The notes below the pieces were generated by a model. The model ran no database searches. It saw only the letters and a list, made by a program, of their open reading frames with translations, and was not told the origin of the DNA. From assembly GCA_016931225.1 (NCBI GenBank), contig JAFGFE010000020.1, positions 124,001 to 188,000 of the forward strand: 64,000 nucleotides of DNA, given 5' to 3'. Every line of letters begins with the position of its first letter. The stretch's first letter is position 1. Of the stretch, positions 24,585-57,880 are shown piece after piece. Both the position numbers and the translations under genes were made by a program. This stretch comes from Candidatus Zymogenaceae bacterium (GTDB lineage Bacteria > Desulfobacterota > Zymogenia > Zymogenales > Zymogenaceae).

Positions 24585-27266
24585 CTACCAGATCGCGTAA
24601 AGATACCCGTCGTCACTGCCGAAAAAGATCACCGGCTTCGATACCGTCACGACCTCTCCCCCGGCGGACACGCCGTCTTCCCCCCCCTCCTCCGGGGATA
24701 CGGTATCGGCGGGTGCTTCGGCCTCATCGATGTCCTCATCCGGGGCATTCCCCGATTCCACCGTGATATCCAGTCTGACGACGACGGGGGATGAATCCAC
24801 CTCCCCCCCGGTATCGAAGCGAAACAACAGCCCGCCCGTGGCGGCGTCGAGGGCGTAGAGGGAATGATCCCGGCTTCCCACGTAGACGACCCCCTCAACC
24901 GGCGCCTTTCCGTCGTAGGTATCATCCATGCCGGTCCACTCGATGTGCCCCAGGGGGGCGACCTCGCCCGCGGAAAACAACATCGCCTCCCCCGCCGGCG
25001 AATTCGGGGAGTCGGATTCTTCGCCTATTTCCACCCCGTCGGTCAGCACAAACGGGGTCGACCCCACCGCTGCGCCGGTCTTCACCCTCCAGTAGGCCGC
25101 CCCGGTTCGCGCATCGAGGGAGTATATATATCCATCGGCGCTGCCGACGTAGAGTGTTTCGCCGCTGATAGCGGGCGGGGAGAAAATCGATCCATTTGTC
25201 TTCCTGCGCCAGACCAGGGCGCCGGTTTCGGCGTCCAGGGCGTAGAGCATACCGCCGGCATCGCCCAGAAACACCCATCCCCCGTACGTGCTGGGGGCGG
25301 CGTACAGGGCGCTTCCCGCCTCGAACCGCCAGATATTCGTGCCGTAGGTGGCGTCCACCGCATAGAGGAAATGATCCAGGCTCACGACAAACAATGTGTC
25401 CCCCCAAATCGCCGCCTGTGCATAGATATCCCCACCCACATCGGAAATCCACAACTCCTCTCCGGTCAGGGCGTCCACAGCAGAGATCACCCCCTCGTCT
25501 CCGCCGATAATCACGGTGTCGTCCGCGGCCGCAGGCGCCGAGAAAATCCCGCCCGGGGTCCTGTATCTCCATATTCTATCTCCGCCGATCGCGCTCCAGG
25601 AAAAAAGGAGGCCGTTGTATTCACCGGCGAGGACCATGTCTTTATAATACAGGGGAGAGGAGAGGATCTCCCCTCCGGAATCGGCACGCCACAGAACTTC
25701 GCCCGTCAGGACGTCCAGGGCATAGAGCCGGCCGTCGCCGGAGCCGATGAACACCACGGGCGACGCACCCCCGTCACCAACCGCCGGGGAGGTCCTCAGG
25801 GGGGCCGCCATGTTTCTTGCCCACAGTACCCCGTGGTCCCCCCTCTCCTCCCCATCGAAGGAAAAAACACTCACCGGCCCGATATCGGCCTTCAACGGCA
25901 CATCCTCCACCTTCGGAGAGACCGGTGTCTCCGCACCCGGATCCGCCACATCTTCGGTCACCCCCCCGTCTTCCGGCGGAGATACGACACCACCGCCGCC
26001 GCTCCCTCCGCCCCCCCCACCACCGGTGCGGGAGAACCCTCCCAGGTCGATATGCCGGGCGATACGCTCGATATCGAAGTATCCCGGGAGCACCAGGGTC
26101 TGAGTGGCAAGGAGCACCGTCGCCACTATCCCCGTAATGATAAGGACGAGCAGAACCGCCACCATGAGCGCCCGCCCCAGCCCCATGCCGCCGTACATGG
26201 TTACAGCGGGCGGGGACGGTATCGTCTCGACCCGGGCCGGGAGGACATCCACGGAGGGAACCCGGGGCGTCCGTGAAAAGAGACGCCTGAAAAAACCCCC
26301 GTCTCCCACCTGATCACTCGACAGCGCCCGCCTCCCCACCGCCTTATACATCGCCTTGTGGAGCTCTTCGGCGCTCTGGTACCGGTCGGTGCGGTTTTTC
26401 GCCATGCCCTTTTTGACCACCAACTCCGCCCGCCTGTCTATATCGGGGCGCAGCCTTTCTATCGGCTCCGCCTCACCGTCCAGTATGGCCGCAATGGTGG
26501 AGACCGCCCCCTGGGATTCTCCACCCTCCTCCCTCCGAAAGGGTGAGATGCCGGTGAGCATTTGATACATCACCACCCCCAGAGAGTAGATATCGGTGCG
26601 CCCGTCCAGTTCCCTGCCCCTCACCTGTTCAAGGCTCATGTATTCGGGAGTGCCCATGGTGGTGCCGGGGGTGGTCTGCCCCTTGACGCCCATCGCCTTG
26701 GCGATTCCGAAATCGGTGATGACGACCGAGCCGTTCATGTCGGTATCGGTGAACATGATGTTGCCCGGCTTGATGTCTCGATGAATGATGCCCTGTCCAT
26801 GGGCGTAGTCAAGGGCGTCGGCCACCTGGGCCGCAATGCGGAAGGATTCAACCACCGACAGCGTTCGTCGCTTCCTGATGAGGTCGGACAGATCCCCGCC
26901 GGGGAGATAGTCCATGACGATGTAGCAGGTATCCCGGACCATGCCGGTATCCCGCACCTGGACGATATTCGGGTGGTCAAGCGAGCCGGCCAGCCTCGCC
27001 TCGTTTTCAAAGCGGGTCAGGAATTTTTCATCCCGGGCCAGGGTGGGGTGAAGTATCTTGATAGCCACCGCCTCATCTGTTGCGAGGTCTACGCCCAGAT
27101 AGACCGAACCCATCCCCCCTTCCCCCAGACGCTCATCGACCCGAAAACGATCGACGATCAGGGTTCCGATAAAAAGGTCACCCCCGTGACCAAGGCGCTC
27201 GCCGCATTCGAGGCAAAAGCGTGCCGATTCAGGATTATCATACCCACAGCGGGAGCAGAGTGCCAT
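24585..27266 (-). CDS. Zinc-ribbon Ser/Thr protein kinase with PQQ-type beta-propeller sensor
   Basis: 893 aa. It starts with a zinc ribbon (CSRCGYDNPESARFCLECG, res 4-22), then a complete kinase domain (about 35-300: GEGGMGSVYLG, VAIKILHP, HRDIKPGNIMF, ITDFGIAKA). A span (ALMVAVLLVLIITGIVATVLLA) and a glycine-rich linker lead to an exported domain of about 400 aa made of repeated blades with the PQQ/BamB pattern GxLYALDAxTGxxxW: LYALDVLTGEVLW, ISAVDALTGEELW, LYALDAETGALVW, IYSLDARTGAAYW, LYALDAATGGLLF and the closing GSDDGYLYAIW. Seven or eight blades seem likely. The FHA gene ends 13 bp upstream and is almost certainly coupled to it. Confidence 0.92.
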   Translation of the reverse strand: MALCSRCGYDNPESARFCLECGERLGHGGDLFIGTLIVDRFRVDERLGEGGMGSVYLGVDLATDEAVAIKILHPTLARDEKFLTRFENEARLAGSLDHPNIVQVRDTGMVRDTCYIVMDYLPGGDLSDLIRKRRTLSVVESFRIAAQVADALDYAHGQGIIHRDIKPGNIMFTDTDMNGSVVITDFGIAKAMGVKGQTTPGTTMGTPEYMSLEQVRGRELDGRTDIYSLGVVMYQMLTGISPFRREEGGESQGAVSTIAAILDGEAEPIERLRPDIDRRAELVVKKGMAKNRTDRYQSAEELHKAMYKAVGRRALSSDQVGDGGFFRRLFSRTPRVPSVDVLPARVETIPSPPAVTMYGGMGLGRALMVAVLLVLIITGIVATVLLATQTLVLPGYFDIERIARHIDLGGFSRTGGGGGGGSGGGGVVSPPEDGGVTEDVADPGAETPVSPKVEDVPLKADIGPVSVFSFDGEERGDHGVLWARNMAAPLRTSPAVGDGGASPVVFIGSGDGRLYALDVLTGEVLWRADSGGEILSSPLYYKDMVLAGEYNGLLFSWSAIGGDRIWRYRTPGGIFSAPAAADDTVIIGGDEGVISAVDALTGEELWISDVGGDIYAQAAIWGDTLFVVSLDHFLYAVDATYGTNIWRFEAGSALYAAPSTYGGWVFLGDAGGMLYALDAETGALVWRRKTNGSIFSPPAISGETLYVGSADGYIYSLDARTGAAYWRVKTGAAVGSTPFVLTDGVEIGEESDSPNSPAGEAMLFSAGEVAPLGHIEWTGMDDTYDGKAPVEGVVYVGSRDHSLYALDAATGGLLFRFDTGGEVDSSPVVVRLDITVESGNAPDEDIDEAEAPADTVSPEEGGEDGVSAGGEVVTVSKPVIFFGSDDGYLYAIW

Positions 27267-27279
27267 GAATTTTCCCCGT

Positions 27280-27978
27280 TCAGAAAAAATCCGCTACACA
27301 CCCCATAATGTATCGGGACACGACACATTCCGGGAAGTTCCGGGTGAGAAGAAACAGCCCCAGAACAAGCGATATCGGCGCCCAGATCCACAGGACGGAA
27401 AGAAGCCTGCGGCCGACCACGACCGCCCGCCTTTTACGCGAAAGCAGCGACGCCTGAATGGAGCTTATAATATGAACGATCAGGCCGATGATCCACAGAG
27501 GCAGAACGGCGTAGAGAACGAAGATGGCAAGACCCCGGAGCTTGTAACTCCTGTAGATGTTTCGGTAGATGGATGTCGCGGGCTCAGGCATGACCGGTCG
27601 GGACCCGCCGGCCCCTTTGCCCTGTGCCCTCGATCTCTCGGCTCGAGACGGGATCCCTCCCGGCGGCGTCCTGATATCGGCGATCACCTTGCTGAGCACC
27701 GTGATGCTCTCCCCCCAGAACTCCACAATATCTCCGCCGACAATGTTCCGGGAGTCGTTTTTTACCAGCTCCCCGTTAATGAATGTTCCATTGGAGCTGG
27801 TGTCATGATAATCAAGATGCGCGCCGTTGACCTTGAAAAATCCGTGATCCCGAGATATCCTCGCCCCCTTCAGGACGATATCGCTTCTTTTCCGCCTTCC
27901 GACGGTGATGAGGGGACGTGAAGTTTCAAATCGTTTCGTGCCGCCGTCAAGACCGATAATAAGAAATACCTGTTTCAT
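27280..27978 (-). CDS. FHA-domain membrane protein
   Basis: 232 aa from the ATG at MKQVFLII; the open frame continues upstream without a credible start. The N-terminal FHA domain has the canonical phosphothreonine-binding residues: VGRRKRSDI (Arg), RISRDHGFF (Ser and His) and TSSNGTFING (Ser, Asn). After a linker with Pro and Arg come two spans (LRGLAIFVLYAVLPLWIIGLIVHII and WIWAPISLVLGLFLL). It should bind phospho-threonine marks on the inner face of the membrane. It lies 13 bp before the zinc-ribbon kinase gene, whose autophosphorylated form is the obvious candidate ligand. Confidence 0.87.
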   Translation of the reverse strand: MKQVFLIIGLDGGTKRFETSRPLITVGRRKRSDIVLKGARISRDHGFFKVNGAHLDYHDTSSNGTFINGELVKNDSRNIVGGDIVEFWGESITVLSKVIADIRTPPGGIPSRAERSRAQGKGAGGSRPVMPEPATSIYRNIYRSYKLRGLAIFVLYAVLPLWIIGLIVHIISSIQASLLSRKRRAVVVGRRLLSVLWIWAPISLVLGLFLLTRNFPECVVSRYIMGCVADFF

Positions 27979-28148
27979 GATTCCATTCCATATCCAGTAT
28001 GTATAGAAGCGATGAACGCCGGACAAAAAAGAGATGCAACGTATCGAGAAACCGGTGGAGAATCTATGATGCCCCTGATGATAGCATACGATCAGGCCGC
28101 AGGCAACCGACAAGTCGTCCGGACGGCGAGAAACGAGTACGGTGCCCC

Positions 28149-29282
28149 CTATAGATCTTCATGGAGTCTCCCGTACGCCGTTCCCAGCACCTCCCAGACC
28201 AGATCGGGATTGTCGCTTTGCAGGTTCATGGGCGCGCCTCCCCGAAAACTCCACGCGGCGATGTTTTTTATCCCCAGGTCCGCAACGATCGATATCGCGT
28301 CGGAAATCTCCTGTTCCCTACCCGCCGGCACCCGGTAGGCCTGCACCCATATCTGGGGTGTCTTTCCGTACTCGGCGGACACACCGATCACCTTCTCGGT
28401 GGTGGAGGCGACGAACTCTCTCACGGGTTGTCTGAAGGCGTACCAGTAGGGATCGCTGCCGAAGATATCCACCGTGTCGATGGCGGCGATGAGATCCCAT
28501 GACGATACGCCGGTGAGGTGGCTTTCCTGGGGAAGCATCACCACGGCGTTCTTCAAACCCGCCGCGCCCCCCCGGGCCGATGCATTGGTAAAAAAGTCCA
28601 CGATGGATCGATCCCGAAAGGCGACAACCTCATCCGTCATCAGCTCAGGCATCTCCTCCCCGTATTGAATTCGAAACAGCTCCCGGCACCGGTCGCATCT
28701 GCAGGCCCATTCATTTTCTCCCTGTTCTCCCCGCCACACGGCCCTGGGGATGTAAAAATGCGGCTCGTCCCAGAAAAGCACGTCGGCGCCGGTCTCCACA
28801 GCTGTGTCGATCCAGCCGTCCATGAATTCCCGAAAGGTCGGCCGATTGATACATGCAGCGGGAAGCGGCGTGCCGTCGGCCAGCCGCTGGGTTTCCCCCG
28901 GGTGCTCCATGACAAATCGTGAAAACGCCTCGCCCCCGAACACGCCCCCCACACCCCAGGGATCGATATAGACGGTGAGCCCTGCGTCTTTGGAGATGCG
29001 CACCACCTCCCGCATGGCCTCGGAATAGAAGTGATAATCCGCCTCGGAGAAGGTGTGCACAACATACGTGCAGTGATGCCGGATGATATCCTCCATATCC
29101 CTTTTTACGTGTTCGGGGTCCCGGCTTCCGAAATAACTCACCCCGGTCTCAAAACCGCGGCCCTCCGCCCCCCGGGCAACCGCACCGTGAAACAGCCCCA
29201 CCGATCCCGACCCCAGGGCGAGAAGCGCCGCCCCGGACCCTGTCAGGAAACGCCGCCGACTGATATACTTCATGGATGACAT
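28149..29282 (-). CDS. Tat-exported putative TIM-barrel glycoside-hydrolase-like protein
   Basis: 377 aa. A twin-arginine signal is clear (ISRRRFLTGSGAALLALGSG). The mature protein looks like a TIM barrel: FETGVSYFGSRDPE near the start, GLTVYIDPWGVGG, DVLFWDEPHFYIP (acidic residue at a strand end, as for a glycosidase catalytic residue) and DIFGSDPYWY. A cysteine group ACRCDRCRELF follows the DEPHF strand and may bind metal. I do not know a characterised family with this layout; glycosidase activity is an inference. GGAGGG five bases before the ATG sets the start. It lies in the middle of the kinase/cell-wall block. Confidence 0.6.
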   Translation of the reverse strand: MSSMKYISRRRFLTGSGAALLALGSGSVGLFHGAVARGAEGRGFETGVSYFGSRDPEHVKRDMEDIIRHHCTYVVHTFSEADYHFYSEAMREVVRISKDAGLTVYIDPWGVGGVFGGEAFSRFVMEHPGETQRLADGTPLPAACINRPTFREFMDGWIDTAVETGADVLFWDEPHFYIPRAVWRGEQGENEWACRCDRCRELFRIQYGEEMPELMTDEVVAFRDRSIVDFFTNASARGGAAGLKNAVVMLPQESHLTGVSSWDLIAAIDTVDIFGSDPYWYAFRQPVREFVASTTEKVIGVSAEYGKTPQIWVQAYRVPAGREQEISDAISIVADLGIKNIAAWSFRGGAPMNLQSDNPDLVWEVLGTAYGRLHEDL

Positions 29283-29345
29283 ACAGACCCTCCGCCGTCA
29301 CGTTTCATCATATCATCTCTCTTTCTGCACCCATCGTCAGTAAGT

Positions 29346-29999
29346 TCATTCATCAAAAAAGGGATACGCCCCTGAGAGCGTATCCCTGCTAACCGAGATA
29401 ATAACCGGCGTCCCCACATCCACCATGTGGTAGAGCAGGATTGCGTCTTTTGCCGTGAGCTTGATACACCCCGCAGACCTGGTCGGCTTTCCGTCGACGA
29501 GCCTGGTGGTCCCGTGGATCTCGATGCAGTCGCCGGTGTATCCCCGGGCGACATCCTCTTCATTCGGATAATCAAGCCCCATGATCGTGGCGTCCTCCCC
29601 GCCGTAGGCATCTGTCCAGAGCCGTTCCTCATTCCGTCCCTCGGGGCCGTAGACGAGTCCCGTCTCGTCGCACCAGGTCATCCCCTCGATGACGGGGCTT
29701 CCCTTGTCGGTGTGTCCCCGGTTCACCTCCACCGACGCCATCCACGCGATGTGATATTCCCCCACCGGGGTTTTTCCGTCCCCCTCCCGGGTCTTTCCCA
29801 TGCCGCCGTAACCGGTCTCGCAGGGGAACGAGGCGATTAATTCGGCGCCTTCGTACACCAGGAACGCCTTTTCCGCGTCGATGACGAACACGACACGGTC
29901 ATCGAAAGCCCGAACATCATCGCCCCCGAAGGATACACCCGCCATAAAACAGATACACAGCGCCGCCAGGCTGAGAGCCGCTCTCTTGATATGTTCCAT
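29346..29999 (-). CDS. L,D-transpeptidase (YkuD family)
   Basis: 217 aa. Signal peptide AALSLAALCICFMAGVSFGG. The YkuD domain starts with VVFVIDAEKAFLVYEG, continues with the GDGKTPVGEYHI substrate-groove motif, and ends with CIEIHGTTRL and the catalytic SAGCIKL (Cys near res 186). It lacks the extra modules of the transpeptidase at 20421-21614. It probably makes 3-3 cross-links or anchors proteins to the wall. The ATG overlaps the TGA of the gene upstream (TGATG), so translation is coupled; a GTG one codon earlier is the alternative start. Confidence 0.9.
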   Translation of the reverse strand: MEHIKRAALSLAALCICFMAGVSFGGDDVRAFDDRVVFVIDAEKAFLVYEGAELIASFPCETGYGGMGKTREGDGKTPVGEYHIAWMASVEVNRGHTDKGSPVIEGMTWCDETGLVYGPEGRNEERLWTDAYGGEDATIMGLDYPNEEDVARGYTGDCIEIHGTTRLVDGKPTRSAGCIKLTAKDAILLYHMVDVGTPVIISVSRDTLSGAYPFFDE

Positions 30000-30568
30000 C
30001 ACTCCAGGATGTCGATATAGTCGTAATTTTCAATGATCAGCCAGCGCCCGTTGCTCTGGAGCTCCATAATGTACAGCTCCTCGGCGGCCTCGGAAAAGCT
30101 CGTGCCGTCCTTTTTATAAAACGTCATGGTGTATCGGGTGGCGACGTACGCCCGGTTTTCGTACTTGATCTCATTACTGAGCATTTCCCAATAGACATCG
30201 ACCCGCCTGTACGTGGCGAAATCCTTCTTGCGCTTGTTGGAAATGGCGGTATAGTTTCTCCTCGTCCCGTCCATGAAGATCTGAAGGGCGTCGACCGACC
30301 AGGCGCTCATATACAGGTCGAAATCGAGCGTGCGCCATCCGTCGTATACCGCCAGGAGGGTCCGCTCGATCTCACTCCTCTCGGACGGCGAGGGCGCTCT
30401 GCCGCCGAATGTGATCGCCACATCCCATCCATTGTCGATGAAGAGGGAATCACTCTCCGCAGCCGGAGTTGTATCTGCGGCAAATCCCACGCCGGAAAGC
30501 AGCAGAACCGATCCCAGTATCACCGTTCCGACGATTCGGACACACATCATTGTATGTTCTCTGTTCAT
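29999..30568 (-). CDS. Exported NTF2/SnoaL-like protein
   Basis: 189 aa from the ATG with CAGGAGCGATTGAT upstream. A signal peptide (IVGTVILGSVLLLSGVGFAAD) is followed by an alpha+beta domain with the features of NTF2-like folds: a leading helix (SERSEIERTLLAVYDGWRTLDFDLYMSAW), then strands YRRVDVYWEMLSNEIKYENRAYVATRYTMTFYKK and LYIMELQSNGRWLIIENYDYI. Such domains often bind small molecules or act as scaffolds outside the cell. Its stop overlaps the start of the L,D-transpeptidase gene, so the two products are likely to work together. Confidence 0.7.
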   Translation of the reverse strand: MNREHTMMCVRIVGTVILGSVLLLSGVGFAADTTPAAESDSLFIDNGWDVAITFGGRAPSPSERSEIERTLLAVYDGWRTLDFDLYMSAWSVDALQIFMDGTRRNYTAISNKRKKDFATYRRVDVYWEMLSNEIKYENRAYVATRYTMTFYKKDGTSFSEAAEELYIMELQSNGRWLIIENYDYIDILE

Positions 30569-30655
30569 ATCAATCGCTCCTGAAAATGACGTTTTTTCTC
30601 TTCCACGCTCTCGGGAACACACTCCCACCTCCGGCGCATCGATGTCCACCGTAGG

Positions 30656-55295: not shown

Positions 55296-55877
55296 ATGAT
55301 CGTATTTTCGATTACACACCCCAACGGTGATGTCGAAACCGTGAAAACCTCCCGGACGAAGCTCACGTTGGGAGGTGAGTATACCAACGACATCATACTT
55401 TCGCGCCGAGGTGTCTTGCCGGAGCACGGGGTATTTCACATCACAGAAGGGAAGGTTGTCTATACCGATAACGGTTTCGGGACCTTTGTGAACGATAGAG
55501 ATATCGTGAACGAGTCTATTACCTTTTCGCCGGATGACAGCATCCAGATCGGGGAGGATATCATCACCTATGCCCTGGAAAAGGAAGAAACAGTCCAGAA
55601 TCGGCACATACCGGCATTTGAATCAGATATTATCAAGGTTGATGAGTTCAACTACACGAAACCGATACATTACTCTCCCCGGTCGTATTACAACCCAAAG
55701 GTGCTCCCCGAGCATACACGTTCGCCCCTGGGACAGACCCCTTCGGAGATGTCTTTATCCTCCGAAAGCTCTCATCCCCGGTCGACAACAATGCCGATGG
55801 GGGAAACATATGTCTACCAATCGCCTTCAACAAAAAAAAGGTCGACCCGCAAGCAATCGAAAACGCTCAAATGGTAA
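55296..55877 (+). CDS. FHA-like domain protein 1 of tandem array, truncated unless frameshifted
   Basis: 193 aa from the ATG at MIVFSITHPNGDVET; its paralogues start at the same place. The N-terminal 95 residues align with the other two tandem proteins and have an FHA-like plan: TLGGEYTNDI, LPEHGVFHI, DNGFGTFVND. The Arg of the FHA GR motif is Gly and the Ser of SxxH is Leu, so phosphothreonine binding is doubtful. A Ser/Pro-rich linker follows and the frame stops at KTLKW without the membrane segments of its paralogues. A slippery A8 tract lies 38 bp before the stop, and the -1 frame encodes the missing part. Confidence 0.72.
   Translation: MIVFSITHPNGDVETVKTSRTKLTLGGEYTNDIILSRRGVLPEHGVFHITEGKVVYTDNGFGTFVNDRDIVNESITFSPDDSIQIGEDIITYALEKEETVQNRHIPAFESDIIKVDEFNYTKPIHYSPRSYYNPKVLPEHTRSPLGQTPSEMSLSSESSHPRSTTMPMGETYVYQSPSTKKRSTRKQSKTLKW
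55832..55839 (+). other. Slippery A8 tract with -1 frameshift heptamer
   Basis: Eight A residues read as ACA AAA AAA AGG in the FHA frame, so A_AAA_AAA is in the exact phase of a -1 slippery heptamer. After a -1 shift the frame continues AAG GTC GAC with no stop through the ATG at 55871 to the stop at 56065, giving about 256 aa with C-terminal spans. No strong stem-loop is seen directly downstream. A mutation or assembly error in the homopolymer would look the same. Confidence 0.55.
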
Positions 55878-56065
55878 AAGTACACAGACGAATCAGTCTG
55901 TTGCGTAGCATTACACGTATGGATGTTTTCATGATTCTTTTTGCACTCATCACATTGATATTTTTAGTAAATGATGGTTTCAAAAATGCTGATGAAAACC
56001 CATTTCTTTTATGGATAGTTATCTACATAGTATTACGTACTGCGATGTTTTTCAGTAATAGATAA
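55871..56065 (+). CDS. Membrane segment in -1 frame of FHA gene 1 (split C-terminus)
   Basis: 64 aa if started at its own ATG, which overlaps the stop of the FHA gene (ATGGTAA). Two hydrophobic stretches (MDVFMILFALITLIFLV and PFLLWIVIYIVLRTAMFF) follow a basic stretch (KVHRRISLLRSITR). The two tandem FHA paralogues end in one or more such spans, so this looks like the lost C-terminus of the upstream gene. It could be made as a frameshift fusion, by translational coupling, or not at all if the gene is broken. No own ribosome-binding site is visible. Confidence 0.55.
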   Translation: MVKVHRRISLLRSITRMDVFMILFALITLIFLVNDGFKNADENPFLLWIVIYIVLRTAMFFSNR

Positions 56066-56206: not shown

Positions 56207-57010
56207 ATGATCGTCTTTACGATTACACGGCACGACGGCAACATCGAAACGCTCAAAACCTCCCGGACGAAGCTCACGGTGGGAGGCGCGTACACCGACG
56301 ACATCACGCTTCTGGATGGGGATGTCTCCCCGGAGCACGGGACGTTCGAGATTTCGGAAGATGTGGTTTTCTACATTGATAACGGTTACGGGACCCTCGT
56401 AAACGATAGAAATGTCGTAGATAAATCCGTTACCGTCTCGCCGGACGACAGCGTCCGAGTCGGGGAGGTCGTCATCACCTTCAGGTTTTCACGAGATGAG
56501 AATATATCGACCCGTGAACCAGTATCATTCGAAACGGACTTCTCTGATAGAGCACCATATTTCCATTCGAAACCGGCCCACACCCCGATGCCTTCTCTAC
56601 CTGAAACGGAGCTTTCAGATTCAATTTCCAGCACAGAATCAACTCCCTCCTGGACGGCGCTGCACCCTGATCCTGCTTCTTCCGAGACATCCGATCCTTT
56701 CGAATCAATTCCCTTACAAACGCCTTCGTCTCCCAGGCCAACCCCATACGAGGCTCCTTCCGGGGATATATTGCTCGACGTGCCCTCGTCAACGCCGAGA
56801 GACCTCTTTACCGATAATAGGAGCCTGGCGATAACCATTGTCTTACTGATGCTTTTTTTCTGGCCTATCGGTTTGTTGGCGAATTTCCTGGTCTGGATAA
56901 TCGGGAACAAACGAGGCGCCAATTTTGGATGTATCAGGGTGCTCATGTTTATAAATGTCTTGATTACATTAGTCGTTGCATATTTCATTGGTGGGTGGAT
57001 ATCTTCTTAA
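56207..57010 (+). CDS. FHA-like domain membrane protein 2 of tandem array
   Basis: 267 aa. FHA-like N-terminus (about res 1-95): IVFTITRHDGNIETLKTSRTKLTVGGAYTDDI, VSPEHGTFEI, DNGYGTLVND. SxxH is partly kept (VSPEH), but the phosphate-binding Arg is replaced by Gly. A long Ser/Thr/Pro linker (about 100-205) is followed by two or three spans (LAITIVLLMLFFWPIGLLANFLVWIIG and VLMFINVLITLVVAYFIGG). The Ser/Thr-rich linker could itself be a kinase substrate. Its DNA shares long identical blocks with its tandem neighbours, marking recent duplication. Ribosome-binding site weak. Confidence 0.78.
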   Translation: MIVFTITRHDGNIETLKTSRTKLTVGGAYTDDITLLDGDVSPEHGTFEISEDVVFYIDNGYGTLVNDRNVVDKSVTVSPDDSVRVGEVVITFRFSRDENISTREPVSFETDFSDRAPYFHSKPAHTPMPSLPETELSDSISSTESTPSWTALHPDPASSETSDPFESIPLQTPSSPRPTPYEAPSGDILLDVPSSTPRDLFTDNRSLAITIVLLMLFFWPIGLLANFLVWIIGNKRGANFGCIRVLMFINVLITLVVAYFIGGWISS

Positions 57011-57178: not shown

Positions 57179-57880
57179 ATGATCACTTTTACGATTACAC
57201 GGCCCGACGGCGACGTTGAAACCGCGAAAACCTCCCGGACGAAGCTCACAGTGGGTTGTGCGTACACCGACGACATCACACTCCTGGATGGAAATGTTTC
57301 TCCGGAGCACGGGGTGTTTGAGGTTGTAGGGGAGAAAGTCGTCTATACCGACAACGGCTTCGGAACTTTCGTGAACGATAAAGATATCGTAGGCGAAACC
57401 GTCACCCTTTCGCCGGAGGACAGGGTTTCAATTGGCCCGGTCATTATCACCTATACCCTGAAGAAGGAGGAGATACACCCGGCCCATGATCTTTCGTCAA
57501 ATAAATTAAGCTTCAATGAAAACAATCTCACACACCCGACGGAACCGGCAGAACCCATGACCGGAACGTCTTCACCCCCGGAAGACGATTCCTCGTGGAT
57601 GGTATCCTCTCCGATAGATGATTCTCCTGAAACACCCTCACCCCCTGATAAGTCTTATTATCAGATGTATTCAATACCTAGGTCGGATAATGAAGAAATC
57701 CTCTATTACCTTGACAATGAAGAGCCGATTTCCGACCTTGAAGAAGAATGTATTTCCGATCCTGAAGAGGACGAAGAATCCGAACAATTAAAAATGTCTG
57801 ATGATTCTATCAGAATAATAGTAGCAATTGTCTTTGTGGCGCTTTATCTTTTTTTTGTCCTCACTTTTGATTCCTGCTGA
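57179..57880 (+). CDS. FHA-like domain membrane protein 3 of tandem array
   Basis: 233 aa. FHA-like N-terminus with TVGCAYTDDI, VSPEHGVFEV and DNGFGTFVND, matching its two tandem paralogues; again no Arg in the GR position. The linker is acidic and Ser/Pro-rich (LEEECISDPEEDEESEQL) and the C-terminus is one span (IIVAIVFVALYLFFVLTF). It differs from copy 2 by having a single span and an acidic rather than Ser/Thr-rich linker. It is last in the array. Confidence 0.78.
   Translation: MITFTITRPDGDVETAKTSRTKLTVGCAYTDDITLLDGNVSPEHGVFEVVGEKVVYTDNGFGTFVNDKDIVGETVTLSPEDRVSIGPVIITYTLKKEEIHPAHDLSSNKLSFNENNLTHPTEPAEPMTGTSSPPEDDSSWMVSSPIDDSPETPSPPDKSYYQMYSIPRSDNEEILYYLDNEEPISDLEEECISDPEEDEESEQLKMSDDSIRIIVAIVFVALYLFFVLTFDSC

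Follow-up and report, generated by a model that had tools for sequence, protein, structure and literature searches.

The main finding of this study is that the first of three tandem FHA genes in a 64,000-nucleotide stretch of DNA from a Candidatus Zymogenaceae bacterium (the window, whose numbering is used throughout) is split relative to its own family. Its zero frame encodes an FHA domain and a linker and then stops, and the membrane spans missing from that product lie in the overlapping -1 frame. The split probably reflects a recent small indel, or an error in the consensus, within the linker of this lineage-specific tandem gene. The original prediction had proposed slippage at a run of eight A residues (A8), with homopolymer mutation or assembly error as the plain alternative, and that alternative is the better explanation. 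The features on which the argument turns are the following.

55296-55877, plus strand: zero-frame ORF with ATG at 55296 and stop TAA at 55875-55877, encoding 193 aa with an FHA domain (aa 25-86) and a Ser/Thr/Pro-rich linker, and no membrane span.
55646-56065, plus strand: open stretch in the -1 frame, stop-free over 55646-56062 with a stop at 56063-56065; its tail has two membrane spans, residues VFMILFALITLIFLVNDGF and PFLLWIVIYIVLRTAMFFS.
55694-55700, plus strand: C_CCA_AAG heptamer, in phase and inside the same overlap, missed in the original prediction.
55701-55715, plus strand: 6-bp hairpin GUGCUC-CCC-GAGCAU, immediately 3' of C_CCA_AAG with zero spacer; the regional fold at 60 nt is no better than shuffles (z -0.71).
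55706-55871, plus strand: range of the frame switch from zero to -1, from the combined 95% intervals of three models.
55832-55839, plus strand: A8 tract, read ACA AAA AAA AGG, with A_AAA_AAA in the zero-frame phase.
55871-56065, plus strand: possible separate small ORF with ATG at 55871, 64 aa; its start and the zero-frame stop share a 7-nt overlap.
56207-57010, plus strand: paralogue 2, FHA domain, linker and membrane spans in a single frame.
57179-57880, plus strand: paralogue 3, FHA domain, linker and one membrane span in a single frame.

The coordinates of the ORFs, their frames and the phase of A_AAA_AAA at the A8 tract are as originally given, and so is the placement of the two missing spans in the -1 frame. 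The FHA domain of the zero-frame product is a profile match to Pfam PF00498 (E=1.2e-6, 29.3 bits, above the curated cut-off of 20.7 bits). The -1 frame is open from the slippery site and coding downstream, a predicted tryptic peptide of that frame, just 3' of the tract, being VDPQAIENAQMVK. Besides the missed heptamer, two details of the earlier description need amending. First, the frame overlap does include the tract but is 232 nt wide (76 codons) and extends well beyond it. Second, of the two tract lengths that had been expected to restore one continuous frame, A7 and A9, the one-base-shorter tract would bring in the third frame, which stops at 55906, and not the membrane tail.

That the gene is split follows from the architecture of its relatives. 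Both tandem paralogues (2/2) carry their span or spans after the FHA domain within one frame, and in every one of the eight other N-terminal-FHA proteins examined (8/8), from this and same-family genomes, at least one membrane span follows the FHA domain in the same frame. These include the FHA protein at 27280-28113 and relatives in two same-family genomes, which have C-terminal membrane spans, and three further relatives in which a membrane span after the FHA domain is followed by another domain. The syntenic FHA copy of the family is the gene at 27280-28113, not the tandem trio, which consists of lineage-specific tandem duplicates. No orthologue of the trio was found in 3 other same-family genomes, 395 phylum genomes, two GTDB contig scans and one viral contig scan, and the assembly contains no second copy of the locus. 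The syntenic gene lies in a minus-strand block (27280-30649) encoding the FHA-membrane protein, a TAT-signal protein, an L,D-transpeptidase-like protein and a small secreted protein. A same-family genome (L062 6450-9074) has counterparts of all of these but the L,D-transpeptidase-like protein, in the same order range. Directly downstream of this FHA gene, also on the minus strand, a serine/threonine protein kinase with a C-terminal PQQ-like repeat region is encoded at 24585-27266, and the two genes possibly form a kinase-FHA pair.

The -1-frame tail looks like more than a product of chance and resembles real coding sequence. Its hydrophobic spans reach peak Kyte-Doolittle means of 2.31 and 1.87, in a tail with a G+C content of 32% (AT-rich), and its codon likelihood is weakly positive (+4.2 versus the best shifted frame). 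When the stretch past the zero-frame stop was subjected to 20,000 dinucleotide shuffles, the -1 frame stayed open in 1.3% of them, and stayed open with two spans in only 5, which suggests that the tail was translated until recently. We consider it very likely that this tail is the lost anchor of the first FHA gene, and the original view that it belongs to the gene family, in the -1 frame, is upheld. No homologue of the tail was found elsewhere, and a profile of the paralogue spans did not match it; since it shares no detectable similarity with the other anchors, its common ancestry with them is argued from position only.

We infer that the ancestral gene encoded a single chain of FHA domain, linker and membrane anchor, as in the paralogues, and that a small linker indel (or a consensus error) within 55706-55871 would have disrupted its frame. 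The A8 tract, a homopolymer and as such a hot spot for mutation and consensus error, would be the most mutable spot of this range, though not the sole candidate. The main product would now be a soluble truncated FHA protein of 193 aa, and the membrane tail would be untranslated or reached by rare slippage only. This explanation is favoured because family members hold both parts in one frame, because neither a stimulatory fold, nor a Shine-Dalgarno-like stimulator near the tract, nor a relative with the same split arrangement was found in the searched collections, and because loss of frame costs little in a lineage-specific duplicate such as this one, the syntenic family copy being located elsewhere. 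A further point in its favour is that the FHA domains of the trio have already lost conserved arginines. The canonical phosphothreonine-binding domain has the Arg of GR and the Ser-Arg of SRxH; the trio instead has GG, GG and GC at the GR position and PE at the SR position, and GR and SR are retained in 4/5 aligned relatives (the copy in genome G003 has SR but not GR). The regions concerned are 55296-55595, 56207-56506 and 57179-57478, and judging from these residues the usual phosphothreonine binding may be absent from all three domains. A survey of 1106 genomes likewise expected frameshifted genes (fs-genes) without relatives to reflect indels, sequencing errors or overlapping genes (PMC3711429). 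Two observations count against an indel or error: the tail frame is open with no further defect, which continued translation would explain equally well, and two efficient heptamers lie in the 76-codon overlap, above expectation. The completeness of the assembly (99%) and the intact large ORFs around the locus argue mildly against many consensus errors.

The original prediction placed the frame change at the A8 tract, which the coding evidence does not bear out, as the models disagree and two of their intervals lie upstream of the tract. With an average codon model the switch falls at 55706-55751, and with an order-4 phase-specific Markov model it falls at 55706-55769; a third model, built on the linker composition of the paralogues, gives 55814-55871. 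A switch at 55838 scores -11.8, -1.9 and -7.1 in relative log-likelihood across three models. All models call the -1 frame coding already upstream of 55871. The upstream switch given by the codon and Markov models was not accepted, because the controls reveal a linker bias: among 212 Ser/Thr/Pro-rich windows taken from real genes, 22% score equally well in the -1 frame, and the linker of paralogue 2 has the same -1-frame codon bias, so that a switch called from codon models alone is untrustworthy. Alignment of the linker to those of the paralogues was no better than its own shuffles in the zero frame (p 0.66-0.78) and gave p 0.014 in the -1 frame against paralogue 2, a weak result and one of several tests.

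Recoding, the best surviving of the rival explanations, is nevertheless unlikely. It would involve a -1 ribosomal frameshift at A_AAA_AAA (or C_CCA_AAG), or slippage of RNA polymerase on the A8 tract, yielding a minor membrane-anchored form beside the soluble one. The overlap does hold two slippery X_XXY_YYZ heptamers in the correct phase, followed by an open tail that codes for membrane spans. C_CCA_AAG, one of the three strongest -1 motifs in E. coli (PMC4066793), is scarce in the host's own genes (6 in 299,012 codons), and only 0.058 heptamers of the four strongest kinds are expected in a 76-codon overlap. In 0.86 Mb of the same genome there are 64 in-phase A_AAA_AAA sites; a -1 shift extends the frame furthest at the A8 site (75 codons versus 12), the only one to gain more than 50 codons past the zero-frame stop. 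The configuration is uncommon, not unique: in 137/863 sampled genes the -1 frame continues past the stop, usually reaching the following gene, and in 5/863 such an overlap contains a heptamer of the four strong kinds. A search for other homopolymer-split genes returned mostly ordinary neighbouring genes. Against recoding, no Shine-Dalgarno-like element was found at stimulator distance (about 10-14 nt before the heptamer) from the A8 tract, and folds at the distance of a stimulatory structure (about 5-9 nt after the heptamer) were within the range of shuffles both 3' of the tract (z -0.43 to -1.31) and 3' of C_CCA_AAG (z -0.71 to -1.54). An Rfam search gave no match. Without stimulators, the best heptamers shift about 0.3% of E. 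coli ribosomes (PMC4066793). The searched collections yielded no orthologue that could display conservation of the tract, the coding models do not place the switch at A8, and C_CCA_AAG falls slightly outside the upstream switch intervals. Transcriptional slippage occurs mostly at runs of at least 9 A, and 8 A may suffice in some bacteria (PMC1088944); the run here is 8 A, short of the at least 9 A/T (or a conserved run) that would mark such a site. The programmed slippage at A8 giving two products that was originally proposed is thus the part of the prediction that did not hold, there being no stimulator found, no orthologue with a kept tract in the searched collections and no switch shown to lie at the tract. 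Still less likely is the specific version in which one of the two heptamers, either A_AAA_AAA or C_CCA_AAG, fixes the anchored form at a small proportion relative to the soluble one. Were recoding true, the locus would be an unusual bacterial case outside IS elements and dnaX, with slippage deciding whether the regulator is soluble or anchored. On present evidence it serves as a caution: an A8 run in perfect phase within an overlap mimics a programmed signal, yet the coding evidence does not locate the frame change at that run.

It is likewise less probable than recoding that the locus consists of two overlapping genes, in which a soluble FHA protein would be followed by a separate 64-aa membrane protein starting at ATG 55871 and translationally coupled to the stop at 55875. 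The 7-nt overlap of start and stop is a coupling signature used in PMC3711429, but in every frame model a -1 frame starting at 55871 loses 5 to 16 in log-likelihood against one that begins further upstream, which argues against a separate small gene starting there; moreover, no SD-like motif precedes 55871, and all relatives have their spans within the FHA chain. The least probable explanation is phase variation, in which changes in A8 length at replication would toggle the anchor within the population: the homopolymer does sit in the two-frame overlap, but 8 A is short for a contingency tract, its length is ordinary (about 450 such runs in the genome, and 26 runs of at least 8 A within genes in 0.86 Mb), and the switch point is not localised to A8.

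A recent indel or consensus error in the linker, the preferred explanation, can finally be set against known systems. The locus shares with dnaX and IS-element -1 programmed frameshifting (A_AAA_AAG, A_AAA_AAA, C_CCA_AAG) its in-phase heptamers in a zero/-1 overlap and a zero-frame stop soon after the A8 tract, but it is without their upstream Shine-Dalgarno element and downstream stimulatory structure, and no orthologue that could show conservation was found in the searched collections. With genes using transcriptional slippage (Thermus dnaX with A9, and IS elements with 8-9 A; PMC1088944) it has in common an A run at which a single additional A in the transcript would unite the two frames; it differs in that the run is 8 rather than at least 9 and has no orthologue in the searched collections to show conservation. 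Compared with FHA proteins with C-terminal membrane spans from the same bacterial family (PF00498), it has the same FHA domain, Ser/Thr/Pro-rich linker and terminal spans, whereas the first tandem copy reaches its spans only by a frame change and the trio is without the GR and SR arginines. Unlike fs-gene singletons, which are indel pseudogenes or sequencing errors (PMC3711429), it has in-phase slippery heptamers and no intact orthologue in the searched collections; like them, it occurs in a single genome with no split relatives, its frame change lies near the 3' end and its downstream part is recognisable.
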